From contig AP028876.1 in the NCBI GenBank assembly GCA_036323355.1, positions 1,860,001 through 1,924,000 of the forward strand: DNA of 64,000 nucleotides, in the 5' to 3' direction. Positions 48,094-58,009 of this stretch are shown one piece after another. Position numbers and translations under genes: made by a program. The first letter of the stretch is position 1. Every line of letters starts with the position of its first letter. Below the pieces are notes generated by a model. That model was not told the origin of the DNA, searched no databases, and saw nothing but the letters and a program-made list of their open reading frames with translations. The stretch is from Gottschalkiaceae bacterium SANA. Its GTDB lineage: Bacteria > Bacillota > Clostridia > Tissierellales > GPF-1.

Positions 48094-48887
48094 TTCTTTT
48101 CCCCCTTTTGATAAGCGTCAATTACGATTTTCTCTATCTCTTCAGCTGCTAATGAATCATTTTTATCTTCTTCAATATGCAAAAGGAACTCAACGTTCCC
48201 CTTTTTCCCTTGAATGGGAGAAGGAACCATCCCATGTAGATAATAGTGCTTAGCTTCCAATTCAAGAATTAATCGGCACAGACTTTGAAGCACAACCTTT
48301 GGATTTCTAACAATGCCACCCTTGGAAAGGGCTTTCTTCTCTGTCTCAAATTGCGGCTTGAACAAAAACAGAAACACTGCATCTTGTTCGGACAATCTTA
48401 ATACATCCGCCCAAATTTTCCGAATTGAAATAAAGGAAACATCTGCCACAACAACATTCGGTTTCGTTCTCAACTCAATGGGGTCTATTGATCGAATATC
48501 TCGATTTTCCATCACTTGAACGCTCGCATTACACCTTAGGGAATCGTTCAATTGACAATCTCCCACATCAATCGCATAGACGTATTTCGCGCCATGATTC
48601 AAAAGGCATTGAGTAAAACCGCCTGTTGAAGCACCGACATCCATACACACTTGATCGTGTATCGATACGTCAAATTCTTGTAGTGCAGCTTCGAGTTTTA
48701 ATCCTCCACGACTTACAAAGGGAATGGAATTGCGGCTTTCTTCAATTCGATCCCCTTGGTGAATGGAACGGCTGGGTTTTTTTATCACACGCCCATTCAC
48801 GGTAAAATCGCCATTCTTTATTCTTTGAACAGCCCTTGAACGACTGATTTCTTCAAACAATTCAGTTATTGCTATATCAAAACGCAT
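48090..48887 (-). CDS. tlyA: TlyA-family rRNA (cytidine-2'-O)-methyltransferase
   Basis: A 265-residue protein with an N-terminal S4 domain (SRSRAVQRIKNGDFTVNGRVIKKPS) and an FtsJ-like Rossmann methyltransferase (VCMDVGASTGGFTQCLLNHG). Members methylate 16S and/or 23S rRNA and affect capreomycin sensitivity; Bacillus calls it YqxC. It overlaps the preceding oapA stop by one base (TAATG). The ispA-(dxs)-tlyA-argR-recN order is standard; dxs is absent here. Confidence 0.94.
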   Translation of the reverse strand: MRFDIAITELFEEISRSRAVQRIKNGDFTVNGRVIKKPSRSIHQGDRIEESRNSIPFVSRGGLKLEAALQEFDVSIHDQVCMDVGASTGGFTQCLLNHGAKYVYAIDVGDCQLNDSLRCNASVQVMENRDIRSIDPIELRTKPNVVVADVSFISIRKIWADVLRLSEQDAVFLFLFKPQFETEKKALSKGGIVRNPKVVLQSLCRLILELEAKHYYLHGMVPSPIQGKKGNVEFLLHIEEDKNDSLAAEEIEKIVIDAYQKGEKK

Positions 48888-49453
48888 TATTTCTTCTTTC
48901 CCTTCTTAAGATCCTTCATTATACGAATATGAAATCGTTCATCTAAAATCTGTAGGATCCGAGCAACCTCTAAAACAATTTCCTTGTGACGAGATAAAGC
49001 TAACTCTTTCCCAAATGCCTTTCCACCTACGGTCATTGCAGCAAGAACACCGCTGAACACCACAGAAAGCCAAAATAAATCTTGTTCTGGAAAGCGTGAA
49101 ACAACACGAAAGATAATAGAAGCACCTGCAGCACCACTAATAATTCCGCAAATATCCCCAATAACATCATTGCAGAAATTCGATACTTGGCTTGCATTGC
49201 GCACCAATAAAACCGCATACTTCGCCCGATAGTTTCCCTTCGCCGACATGGCGTGAAAGGGTTTTTCGGAGCTCGCGGCCACCGCTATTCCAATGGTATC
49301 AAAAACAACCCCTACAAATACAATGAAAAACAGAATCAAGAAAGCCAAAACAAGATACGCTCGGCTGATGACCTGATCTGAAACAAGGCTCGTAAAGATT
49401 GCTAGTATAAATGTTATCAATATAGTTTTATAGATCCAATTATATCGTTTCAT
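48887..49453 (-). CDS. oapA: OLE-associated membrane protein OapA
   Basis: A 188-residue membrane protein with hydrophobic segments at about residues 9-30, 33-60, 98-118 and 125-148. The segment NDVIGDICG supplies a DxxxD motif (D96, D100). OapA of Halalkalibacterium halodurans is a small multi-pass protein with a conserved DxxxD that anchors OLE RNA to the membrane; its gene lies immediately downstream of the RNA, before yqxC/tlyA. Size, topology, motif and position all agree. The ATG has AAAGGAG at 49458-49464, 4 bases upstream, adjoining the RNA's terminator. The identification is from context and motif, not alignment. Confidence 0.85.
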   Translation of the reverse strand: MKRYNWIYKTILITFILAIFTSLVSDQVISRAYLVLAFLILFFIVFVGVVFDTIGIAVAASSEKPFHAMSAKGNYRAKYAVLLVRNASQVSNFCNDVIGDICGIISGAAGASIIFRVVSRFPEQDLFWLSVVFSGVLAAMTVGGKAFGKELALSRHKEIVLEVARILQILDERFHIRIMKDLKKGKKK

Positions 49454-49464
49454 ATGACTCCTTT

Positions 49465-49492
49465 AAAAAAGCTGATAGCATAGGCTACCAGC
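49465..49492 (-). terminator. Intrinsic terminator at the end of the OLE RNA
   Basis: Minus-strand GCTGGTAGC, loop CTAT, GCTATCAGC (one G-T wobble), then six Ts that lead straight into the oapA ribosome binding site. Some read-through into oapA is therefore likely. Confidence 0.9.
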
Positions 49493-50042
49493 TAATAGAT
49501 GGAGGGTTAATGGTAAATTTTGCGGCTTAGGTCCAGCAGGATTTCCCAAACGAAAACTGCCTGTCGCCATAGCAGCGGTTCCCCTTTCATTTCGTTTCAT
49601 CCGCGTCGCCACAAGAAGAGCTGGATCACCACTTAGGCCACACTGCAATCCCAATAACCACGAAGTCTAGGAGTTTTCCTCTACAACCTCTGCGTATCCT
49701 TATCCGCTTTTGCAGAAAGGGTTTCAATAGCAAAGCGTTTTGTCTCTTGGCCTTCGAGCCAAAACACCGATCTATTATCCACCGTTCCCACTCATGGCAG
49801 GCTACGCTGCAGCGAGTTTACACTCTCTGCAGGTGTTATCTTATTACGCTTCCATAATAAGTCTCCACGGAGGTAGGGTCATCGCCCGCATGCCATTGCA
49901 GATCGCCCCATCCTCCTTACTCCCAGAATCTCCCCCCGACTGGGCGTCAGAAGAATCAACCAGGAACTTCATCGATATGCCCTTTGACGGATTTTTGGCC
50001 CCGCCTTCAGGATACGTTCAGTTGACTAGAATACTTTTCCAT
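49465..50042 (-). ncRNA. ole: OLE RNA (ornate, large, extremophilic)
   Basis: About 570 bases transcribed from the minus strand with no usable reading frame, a consensus promoter at its 5' end and an intrinsic terminator at its 3' end. It is rich in hairpins: CTGCAG-A-GAGT, tetraloop GTAA, ACTC-G-CTGCAG at 49807-49832 (a GNRA-capped helix), CTTATTA/TAATAAG at 49840-49861, and TTGGC/GCCAA near 49747-49762. Established knowledge: OLE RNAs are about 600 nt, occur in Clostridia and alkaliphilic Bacilli, lie in the nusB-xse-ispA-tlyA-argR-recN neighbourhood and precede oapA. All these hold here. The RNA forms a membrane RNP implicated in stress tolerance; its biochemistry is unresolved. I have not matched it to the Rfam model. 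Confidence 0.85.
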
Positions 50043-50048
50043 CAATTT

Positions 50049-50077
50049 ATTATAGCATGAACTTGTTTTTTGGACAA
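50049..50077 (-). promoter_or_regulatory. OLE RNA promoter
   Basis: Minus-strand TTGTCC (50072-50077), 17-base spacer, TATAAT (50049-50054). It begins right after the ispA stop codon (50079-50081) and predicts a start near 50042. Confidence 0.85.
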
Positions 50078-54143: not shown

Positions 54144-54701
54144 TTACGCTCTGGATAAATAACTCCCTGTTCTTGTGTCCACTTTAATCTTATCGCCAAC
54201 ATTAACAAAAAGTGGAACTTGAACGATCGCACCCGTTTCACAGGTTGCCGGCTTGGTTGCTCCAGTCGCTGTATTTCCCTTCACTCCCGGATCCGCTTCT
54301 GTTACTTCTAGCTCTACAAAGTTCGGCGGCTCAACTTGGAATGCTCGTCCATCATGGAATTTCATTGTTGCGTTATCATTTTCCTTGATGTATTTAATCG
54401 CTTCTTCCACTTGTTCATAATTCAATGGAATTTGCTCGAATGAAACCACATCCATAAAATAATACAACTCCCCGTCATTATAAAGGTATTGCATATCTTT
54501 CGTTTCAATCATTGCCTTTTCAAATTTCTCAGTTGGATTGAAAGTTTCTTCTCTAATAGATCCTGTCTTCAAGTTTTTAATGGTTGTTCGAACAAAAGCA
54601 GCACCCTTCCCAGGCTTTACATGAAGAAAATCCACAATAACGTAAATGTCATTATTTCGTATAAATGTTAATCCTTTTTTAAAATCACCAGCAGAAATCA
54701 T
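54144..54701 (-). CDS. efp: Elongation factor P
   Basis: A 185-residue EF-P that rescues ribosomes stalled at polyproline stretches. The three-domain fold is complete; the tip lysine K32 in [10 protein letters not shown] is the residue that carries post-translational modification in other species. The C terminus ends [17 protein letters not shown]. The ATG has a GGAGGG site. It has its own probable promoter. Confidence 0.97.
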
Positions 54702-55303: not shown

Positions 55304-55783
55304 TTATCCCTCTTTCTTATAAAGATATATGCGATTTGTCCATACGTCAACTGTGATCTTTCTTTGATATAACTTTTCTTCATCGAAAAAGGTCAAGGTG
55401 CCAGGCATTCCCAATGTCAAATTCGGGTCAAATCGTATTGTTCTCCCCATATTCGATTGGATCCATAAGTGGTCAGGAAGCTCTACTTTCTTAATCGTCT
55501 CCCACTTCGGATACTGTTCCCGACAATCCATTTCTTTAATAAGAACTGTTCGATACCCTCCTAGGTCATTAACAAAATCATAGTTGTAAAACACCATTTG
55601 ATACAAGGACTCAGTACGATAGGTATACTCTCTCAAACTGATCATTTCACGGTAAAACCCTTGTACAAAAGAATCATATTTCATCGTATTAATGGGAATC
55701 CGAGGAGTCGCCATAGACAATATAATCCCCAAAATCGCAAGGGTGATCAATAATTCCACTAGGGTAAATCCACGGCGCCTCAT
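55304..55783 (-). CDS. Type II pseudopilin (GspH/FimT-like minor pilin)
   Basis: A 159-residue class III prepilin. The leader is very short (MRRRG) and is cut before FTLVELLITLAILGIILSMA, keeping Glu at +5. The C-terminal domain (about 130 residues) resembles the GspH/FimU type in length but is not further assignable. It is the last gene of the pilus cluster; its ATG overlaps the stop of the previous one. Confidence 0.88.
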   Translation of the reverse strand: MRRRGFTLVELLITLAILGIILSMATPRIPINTMKYDSFVQGFYREMISLREYTYRTESLYQMVFYNYDFVNDLGGYRTVLIKEMDCREQYPKWETIKKVELPDHLWIQSNMGRTIRFDPNLTLGMPGTLTFFDEEKLYQRKITVDVWTNRIYLYKKEG

Positions 55784-56313
55784 CCCAAGTTCCTCATGGC
55801 AAAATATAGATCATAGGCTTTTTCCAAACCTCCCTCTTCAAAAATCAAAAAGAGATGAAGAAGAGGCGTACCCTGGTGATCCTCTCTCTCAATCCACGTA
55901 CATTGTGCGTTTATCACATGATTGGAAAGAGCTTTCTTCACATGTACATAGCCATCCGTCACATCCCAAAGCTGCAAAGTTCTCCCCTCTTGCACAAATC
56001 GAATGGTCTTCCATCCTGTACATCCAAGAATTGAGCACTTATTTTCATAATATGAAAAATCAATAGCAGAGATTGGCATTTTGGTTTCCTTGGAATGGAT
56101 CGAAACCGCTTCAACCGGAAAAATTGTCTCAAATAAGAATTCAGAGACATATCTTTCTTCGTCTTCAATACAAATTCGCTCTGCTATGCCATTCGTGATT
56201 TGATTCTCTACGACAATGATTTGAACCAAAACCACAAGAAAAACCCCGACAACTGCCAGCGTAACCAACAGTTCGATCAGGGTAAATCCAATTATTCGGG
56301 TATTCGCTTTCAT
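55780..56313 (-). CDS. Type II prepilin-like minor pilin
   Basis: A 177-residue protein with a prepilin leader (MKANTRIIG) before FTLIELLVTLAVVGVFLV; Glu at +5 is kept. The globular part has two cysteines (KCSILGC) that may form a disulfide. Comparable to PilW/GspJ-like minor pilins by position, but not assignable by sequence. Overlaps the next gene by 4 bases (ATGA). Confidence 0.85.
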   Translation of the reverse strand: MKANTRIIGFTLIELLVTLAVVGVFLVVLVQIIVVENQITNGIAERICIEDEERYVSEFLFETIFPVEAVSIHSKETKMPISAIDFSYYENKCSILGCTGWKTIRFVQEGRTLQLWDVTDGYVHVKKALSNHVINAQCTWIEREDHQGTPLLHLFLIFEEGGLEKAYDLYFAMRNLG

Positions 56314-56339
56314 TTCGTTTTTTCACTTCCTTATCCTTG

Positions 56340-56909
56340 TTAGTTGAATTGTAAATTCCTCAAGTGATAAAAAAGATCATATTGTTTCGTAATCCCATCA
56401 TGTAAGTAATTGATCTTCACTTTTACCAGACTCACCACACGGCGATCCTGGGACAATCTTTTATAGAAGGTTACCACCGGGTCAATGTTGGCCAGGTGTT
56501 TCGCGATAGATGGGTTAGTTGTATCACTACCGACTACTTTTTTCATGACTAACTCATTATCGTTTTTTTCAAAACTAATCGTAGCAATTTCATCGATATC
56601 ATTACTTGTATCGTTCTCATATTTTAGTTTTATCGTTTCTAGATTGATATCCTTATTGAAATTTGTCGAAGGAAAGGTTGTATCTGTCATATCAACATCA
56701 TTCACTAAAATCCGTTCCGCTTTAACGAACTCCTGAATAATGCGATCATTCACGTCCTTATTTTCTGCGCTCAACACCAAATAAGCATCCACATCACGAA
56801 TGATGGCATACTGAGAAGACATCATGGAGATGATAAAGGTCATAATCACCCCGACAATGACGAGGGTTACCAGCAATTCAATTAAGGTAAAGCCATCATT
56901 TTTTTTCAT
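56340..56909 (-). CDS. Type II prepilin-like minor pilin (PilW-like position)
   Basis: A 189-residue prepilin with leader MKKNDG before FTLIELLVTLVIVGVIM. The start at 56909 is chosen because an ATG 9 bases earlier would sit 2 bases from the GGAG site. The globular domain shows a run ending in YDLFYHLRNLQF, and the preceding gene's product ends YDLYFAMRNLG, so these two genes look like divergent duplicates. Confidence 0.85.
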   Translation of the reverse strand: MKKNDGFTLIELLVTLVIVGVIMTFIISMMSSQYAIIRDVDAYLVLSAENKDVNDRIIQEFVKAERILVNDVDMTDTTFPSTNFNKDINLETIKLKYENDTSNDIDEIATISFEKNDNELVMKKVVGSDTTNPSIAKHLANIDPVVTFYKRLSQDRRVVSLVKVKINYLHDGITKQYDLFYHLRNLQFN

Positions 56910-56924
56910 AATCCTCATTCTCCA

Positions 56925-57560
56925 TTATAGTGAATTTGAATAATTCAATTCTTTGGATTTTATTAAGGTTGTAATCCCTTCAAAATCTCCTGCAAAAGGG
57001 ATTTCATATCTCGTCGATATCAATCTTTTCGCATTTTCCCCTGAAACCTCAATTATTACAATCACTGAATATACGTCATCGCTTGTATCAGAAGTATTAT
57101 TATCATCCAGCACAACGTTAAAAGCGGTGTCTTTATCTTCTTCGCCCAAATCAACAGGGTCATAAATCATCATTAATACATCATTAATACTAGTTTCACC
57201 TAAGAAGTTTTCAGTACTTGGAAAAATTAGGTATCGATCATCCGAATCATCCGAATCATCATAAATCATTTTCATATCTTTAGATATGAAAGCATCCCTA
57301 TAATGATTAAGTTGAGTTCTAATGAAAGCTTTGTCGTATTCGGAATTTTGCGACAAATCTTCCAAAAGACAAAAATCAATAGTGTCCGCAATCCCCTCAG
57401 CTAAGTATAATGCTTTTTCTTGCTCCGCTTCAATTGCGGCAAATTTGATATTTTGCGTATTGAAGCGCAAAAGAGAGGCAACAATTAAAACCACGGCGCT
57501 CATCATGACAATCAACAAAAGAAGAACTGCACCCTCTTCATTCTTTCGATTTCTCTTCAT
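56925..57560 (-). CDS. PilX-like pilus assembly protein
   Basis: A 211-residue protein with one N-terminal membrane helix following NEEGAVLLLLIVMMSAVVL. This resembles the prepilin-like start of PilX, but Glu+5 is replaced and the FTLxE motif is absent, as is common in PilX/GspK-type proteins. The rest is hydrophilic, rich in aspartate (DDSDDSDD). The ATG at 57560 overlaps the stop of the previous gene. Assignment is by position and N terminus. Confidence 0.75.
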   Translation of the reverse strand: MKRNRKNEEGAVLLLLIVMMSAVVLIVASLLRFNTQNIKFAAIEAEQEKALYLAEGIADTIDFCLLEDLSQNSEYDKAFIRTQLNHYRDAFISKDMKMIYDDSDDSDDRYLIFPSTENFLGETSINDVLMMIYDPVDLGEEDKDTAFNVVLDDNNTSDTSDDVYSVIVIIEVSGENAKRLISTRYEIPFAGDFEGITTLIKSKELNYSNSL

Positions 57561-58009
57561 CACAATTCCTCCACGCTTTTGATCGTCATCAAGATCACTT
57601 TCCGATCCTCATCTTTACTCTTGGCAATGACCGCAATTTGATAAAGGACCTTACGGTTATTGTCACCTTCCCCCAGTCGATACGCCCCAATAGCATATTG
57701 ATATTCTGTTCCCACAGAACGAAAAGTTGTCGTGTTACCGTCTTTATCATCGATCCAATCTTGATAGGCAGAATCGTCTGTATAGACATAGTTAGCCGTC
57801 ATCACCGAATACATCTCGGTGACAGATTCAGCCGCCATGACCAATTCCATCTGATTTTGCACAATAATATTTAGATCAGTAACGGTTCTATCGATTTGCT
57901 CCGCACGCTTCACTGAATAAAGATAGGAGAAGGTAGAAACGATAACGATCGACAACAAACCCAAAGCGAGTAAAACTTCAATTAGTGTAAAGCCTGACCG
58001 TTTTGACAT
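57560..58009 (-). CDS. Type II prepilin (PilV/GspI-like)
   Basis: A 149-residue prepilin with leader MSKRSG before FTLIEVLLALGLLSIVIVS, including Glu+5. The FTLIEVLLAL sequence is typical of PilV/GspI. It follows the pilO-like gene by 11 bases. Confidence 0.87.
   Translation of the reverse strand: MSKRSGFTLIEVLLALGLLSIVIVSTFSYLYSVKRAEQIDRTVTDLNIIVQNQMELVMAAESVTEMYSVMTANYVYTDDSAYQDWIDDKDGNTTTFRSVGTEYQYAIGAYRLGEGDNNRKVLYQIAVIAKSKDEDRKVILMTIKSVEEL

Follow-up and report, generated by a model that had tools for sequence, protein, structure and literature searches.

The 49465-50042 gap of the window (the whole 64,000-nt stretch of DNA that we analyzed) holds a complete OLE RNA gene, and its sequence confirms it as a regular member of this known family. 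We scanned the window with the covariance models of Rfam 15, and OLE (RF01071) matched the minus strand at 50058..49483 across 616 of 616 model positions, with 430.4 bits (E = 5e-123). This was the sole above-threshold match in the whole window, and it was reproduced in a repeat local scan. Matches to RsaOG and RAGATH-32 in the same stretch were rejected, being far under their own cut-offs. The first-pass annotation had named OLE RNA from the sequence alone and had proposed a covariance-model search of the minus strand; the full-length match bears it out, at 430 bits where the gathering score of RF01071 is 50 bits. OLE is among the largest conserved bacterial RNAs that lack a settled biochemical role. 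It is known as part of a membrane-bound, dimeric RNA-protein particle that helps the cell handle stress from cold, alcohol, Mg2+, and carbon (PMC9723947, PMC12265935, PMC12286853, PMC12054373). A functional ole gene that forms an OLE particle as in Halalkalibacterium halodurans is almost certainly the explanation for this gap.

The promoter and the intrinsic terminator that had been claimed for the gap are both present. The transcription unit and the gene that follows it are:

50049..50077, minus strand: sigma-70-type promoter, TTGTCC-N17-TATAAT with a TG-extended -10 (from sequence)
49466..50043, minus strand: ole gene, predicted transcript of ~577 nt (ends from promoter and terminator; RF01071 match)
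49470..49493, minus strand: intrinsic terminator, stem AGCTGGTAGC..GCTATCAGCT, then a T run (from sequence)
48887..49453, minus strand: oapA, OLE-associated membrane protein A, 188 amino acids, CNNM-like fold (from a motif and a predicted model)

Judging from these signals, the RNA probably starts near 50043 (predicted at ~50043-50042) and ends near 49466, for a length of ~577 nt, which agrees with the boundaries of the gap. Because the promoter lies at 50077..50049, the first ~15 positions of the Rfam match overlap the -10 region. Promoter-like sites at the equivalent place in relatives reach 9.7/12, versus 7.5/12 in shuffles. The terminator stem (GCTGATAGC...GCTATCAGC) was found repeatedly across the order. 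In several families of the order, the stem between ole and oapA is near-constant (GCUGAUAGC/GCUAUCAGC), which exceeds what termination alone would need.

The neighboring genes are on the same strand. Upstream of ole are nusB, a TsaD-like gene, xseA, xseB, and ispA; downstream are the OapA-like gene (49453..48887), which begins ~30 bases past the OLE match, and then tlyA, argR, and recN. The OLE neighborhood was thus described correctly from the sequence, with nusB, xseA, xseB, and ispA on one side and the OapA-like gene, tlyA, argR, and recN on the other, and a comparable neighborhood has been reported for ole (PMC12265935, PMC12054373). Elsewhere in the window, the minus strand at 55304-58009 has a cluster of small proteins whose N-termini carry motifs like those of type IV pilins (GFTLIELL); it adjoins genes that resemble shikimate kinase and, at 54144-54701, efp.

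Many self-complementary segments had been reported in the gap, and its folding does beat chance. The minimum free energy of the minus strand is -203.7 kcal/mol, versus -180.3 +/- 6.1 kcal/mol for dinucleotide shuffles (z = -3.85), and 0 of 100 shuffles were as good. For covariation, we built an alignment of 67 OLE RNAs taken from order-level relatives and OapA loci, carried the Rfam structure over from the window sequence, and included further pairs in P2, P3, and P3.1, which are unpaired in Rfam. Standard pairs occupy 84.8% of 10,208 cells, versus 73.6% for shuffled controls and 40-48% for controls with slid 3' partners; the structure was taken from one aligned sequence, so the comparison with the slid versions is biased in its favor, while double changes are independent of that. 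Double changes were found at 116 of the 158 pairs (covariation score 0.396 versus 0.188). In the window RNA itself, 15 of 144 Rfam pairs are non-standard. The stems at the base of the structure are:

50039..50043, minus strand: P1 5' strand, GAUGG (pairs with 49498-49502)
49498..49502, minus strand: P1 3' strand, CCAUC (covariation)
50033..50036, minus strand: P2 5' strand, AAGU (compensated pair change)
49663..49666, minus strand: P2 3' strand, ACUU (compensated pair change)
50021..50024, minus strand: P3 5' strand (pairs with 49684-49687)
49684..49687, minus strand: P3 3' strand (covariation)
50010..50016, minus strand: P3.1 5' strand (pairs with 49693-49699)
49693..49699, minus strand: P3.1 3' strand (covariation)

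P3 is paired in 94% of cells, with double changes at 4 of 4 pairs, and P3.1 in 95.7% of cells, with double changes at 7 of 7. P1, which we found apart from the 158-pair set, covaries across the 67 sequences: one position has 45 G-C and 19 A-U pairs, its neighbor has 20 and 42, and these adjacent pairs swap G-C for A-U in concert. Covariation therefore upholds the conserved secondary structure of OLE, including P1 to P3. These stems are already in the published model and are recovered independently here from the alignment; we named them by position. The window RNA has P7, P8, a long P9, and the hairpin of P13, and with them the full-length form of OLE.

The sites at which OLE RNAs contact their partners, or each other, can be located in the window RNA:

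49971..49976, minus strand: palindrome AUCGAU in P4a, in the region of an OapA site (from sequence; putatively the published palindrome)
49912..49918, minus strand: P6 strand AAGGAGG, the Shine-Dalgarno mimic of the bS21 site (from sequence; PMC12054373)
49869..49874, minus strand: P6 strand ACCUCC, the same as the 3' tail of the host's 16S rRNA (from sequence)
49562..49569, minus strand: hairpin loop UGGCGACA of the OapB-binding domain, P12.2/P13 region (P13 assignment putative)
49991..49998, minus strand: A-rich loop L4, CCAAAAAU, the A-A dimer contact (B1) in cryo-EM structures (from sequence; PMC12286853)
49747..49754, minus strand: loop L9 with a self-complementary GGCC, the kissing-loop dimer contact (B3) (from sequence; PMC12286853)

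Palindromes have been described in or near P2 and P4a (PMC12265935). In the P6 helix, AAGGAGG lies opposite ACCUCC. The kink-turn nucleotides of the OapC site (J4a/5, CGAUGAAG) are conserved, and the dimer contact sequences in L4, L5/L6, and L9 are retained.

The OapA-like neighbor that had been noted beside the gap is a real OapA, as indicated by its CNDVIGD motif, its CNNM-like fold, and the OLE RNAs upstream of its homologs. When we scanned genomes with this OapA, we found at least 502 related stretches and kept 80 loci. OLE was just upstream of oapA in all 40 of the 40 OapA loci that were scanned with Rfam. Within the motif, D96 and D100 are invariant in 40 OapA sequences; by spacing and motif, they appear to be equivalent to D100 and D104 of H. 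halodurans, which are altered in PM1. The predicted model of OapA has a pLDDT of 84, and its four best matches among solved structures are all CNNM/CorC transmembrane domains (Z of 11.3-12.8; the next match has 8.1). The same CNNM/CorC entries rank first, weakly, with Foldseek. A sequence search of solved structures with OapA gave no useful match, and we found no model that names OapA among NCBIfam.

The other partners are encoded elsewhere in the genome. The oapB gene is flanked by map and infA, and the only PDB match of its product is OLE-associated protein B (7k9b, E = 2.7e-9). The oapC gene is flanked by rpoC and rpsL, and the best PDB match of its product is YbxF. A bS21 gene is present and is followed by a yqeY-like gene, which, from reading its sequence, we take to be yqeY. 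OapA, OapB, OapC, and bS21 are all intact. We did not detect any protein of the CNNM (MpfA-type) family in the host genome, as would be expected given that OLE and MpfA are anticorrelated (PMC11332333).

The RNA family, the covarying structure, the gene order, all of the partner genes, and the absence of a CNNM paralog were observed directly, and every sequence prerequisite for an OLE particle that we tested was found in the host. By analogy to characterized OLE RNAs, we infer transcription, assembly, membrane location, and a stress role as follows. The gene's own promoter would yield a structured RNA of ~577 nt that ends at the intrinsic terminator, and the oapA message would come from read-through or from a longer operon transcript. 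Two OLE RNAs would pair via the L4, L5/L6, and L9 loops, as in H. halodurans and two Clostridium cryo-EM structures. OapA, as a CNNM-like membrane protein, would anchor the dimer to the cytoplasmic membrane, with OapC on the kink turn by P5, OapB on the P13 region, and bS21 on the P6 helix, which would imitate an mRNA paired with 16S rRNA. The particle may help the cell cope with cold, alcohols, and excess Mg2+, replacing the MpfA-type Mg2+ exporters.

The host genome is a single contig of 3.49 Mb, and OLE is present in 3 of 3 species of the genus. Because OLE sequences from its order-mates are identical to those of Caloranaerobacter azorensis and Sporosalibacterium faouarense, we place the host in the Tissierellales by kinship, in line with the clostridial host that had been predicted. 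Across the order, 68 of the 150 genomes sampled contain OLE. One of these genomes (G062) seemed to have a split or duplicated OLE, but both of the partial matches (near L119:2929-2958 and L120:2619-2648) abut 30-base runs of N, so we attribute this to scaffolding. A molybdenum/tungsten cofactor riboswitch (L119:4844-4963) is close to one of the mis-scaffolded pieces. In a metagenome-assembled genome of Anaerosolibacter, the first ~100 bases of the OLE match (L008:2255-2360) are unlike OLE, which could reflect a truncated gene or an assembly error.

Spo0A went undetected in all three congeners, and none of them has a SpoIVA match that reaches the cut-off, so the genus is probably non-spore-forming. 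OLE has been statistically tied to sporulation (PMC11332333). It has probably been retained in this genus without sporulation. None of the open papers searched joins OLE RNA and non-spore-forming organisms, although OLE variants have been described from the reduced clades RF39 and TANB77 (PMC11332333).

With the genus set aside, conservation across 66 OLE RNAs reaches 97% or more in 158 columns. Of these, 154 are retained in the window RNA, and its four departures are common to both congeners. Two of the departures form one pair of P2, which is C-G in 64/64 outside sequences of the 67-sequence alignment and A-U in the genus; by sequence, this is a compensated change. The other two are at the base of P9 and belong to one Rfam pair: U264 and A353 (window 49795 and 49706) have become A and C, which is non-standard, in all three congeners. 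The computed folds of all three predict that the base of P9 shifts register, so that CUGC would pair with GCGG. The genus has also lost a small hairpin that lies 3' of the 3' strand of P2, as has a distant relative (L031).

The L9 tetranucleotide is GGCC in 63 of the 65 sequences with a long P9, and both exceptions are self-complementary: AGCU (L061) and GUAC (congener L003). Within the genus, two species have GGCC and the third has GUAC, in an RNA (L003:2396-2971) that is 97% identical to the window's. In the OLE dimer, the two RNAs kiss through this self-complementary tetranucleotide (PMC12286853); the forms given there by Kretsch et al. are GGCC, GAUC, and AGCU, and the congener's GUAC is absent from their list. 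There are just two exceptions, and for each, a double change at paired positions would by chance preserve self-complementarity about one time in three. As both GGCC and GUAC are self-complementary, this supports, but does not prove, the idea that OLE dimerization is selected in nature.

We considered whether the locus might be something other than a working ole gene. Scores of OLE RNAs from the genus (420-430 bits) are the lowest among nearly all full-length matches of the order (mostly 450-536 bits), and together with the lost hairpin and the non-canonical basal pair of P9, this means that some loss of function may have occurred. That the gene is decaying and non-functional, in a lineage that is past sporulation, would fit these features and the missing Spo0A and SpoIVA, but we judge it very improbable: the three congeners retain 154/158 conserved columns, 2/4 departures are a single compensated pair, and OapA, OapB, OapC, and bS21 are intact. 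Since P7 is shorter than the Rfam consensus, the window RNA could in principle be a reduced variant (1 or 2) in the scheme of Fernando and Breaker 2024, but this seems less probable still, as it includes P7, P8, the long P9, and the hairpin of P13, and the genome encodes OapB and OapC.

The gap might instead be a long structured leader that regulates oapA in cis by termination and read-through. The terminator does sit between ole and oapA, and relatives across the order have its stem too. We consider this very unlikely, given that the fold is that of full-length OLE, with many pairs outside the terminator, and that OLE of H. halodurans is an abundant separate RNA with its own mutant phenotypes (PMC9723947, PMC12265935). 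As for a protein-coding gene, a conserved protein in the gap had been named in advance as evidence against OLE, and the gap contains open frames that are 63 and 106 codons long. No conserved frame was found; the longest frames differ even among the three congeners, which are 97-98% identical, and changes track base pairing, so coding is scarcely conceivable. We return to a functional ole gene as the best account of the gap.

Thousands of OLE members are already in published surveys, so one more alters little. The window OLE is, by its sequence, an addition to a widespread and well-studied family with cryo-EM structures, not a new class, and its added value is modest: a switched L9 loop, a compensated P2 pair, and a host that is probably non-sporulating. 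Tentatively, with confidence a little short of even, we propose that the genus combines a kissing contact that has gone from one self-complementary form to another (GGCC and GUAC) with a whole OLE particle that persists without the sporulation master gene. If both facts hold together, OLE dimerization would be selected in nature and OLE would have an essential role that is independent of sporulation. The genus is in any case a useful natural experiment, with the full particle but no Spo0A and no MpfA paralog to mask a Mg2+ phenotype, and it offers compensated changes in P2 and in a dimer loop that would otherwise need engineering.

Compared by sequence with the model system H. halodurans, with function here inferred, the window OLE shares the architecture, the tandem oapA, the OapB, OapC, and bS21 partners, the anti-Shine-Dalgarno mimic in P6, and the lack of MpfA. 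It differs in its altered P2 pair and its lost hairpin, and its host belongs to another order with another lifestyle and lacks Spo0A and SpoIVA. The A-rich L4 loop, L5/L6, and the self-complementary L9 of the OLE dimers from C. acetobutylicum (PDB 9MCW) and C. botulinum (PDB 9LCR) are retained. Other OLE RNAs of the Tissierellales (Caloranaerobacter, Sporosalibacterium, and Anaeromonas) are ~71-73% identical to the window's, have the same conserved core, and are also followed by oapA; unlike those of the window's genus, they carry the hairpin after P2, C-G in P2, and U-A at the base of P9. OapA has a transmembrane fold in common with the CNNM proteins MpfA, CorC, and CorB, but its Pfam CNNM score (17.8) is below the cut-off (28.4), and at 188 amino acids it is too short to include their CBS and CorC_HlyC domains.
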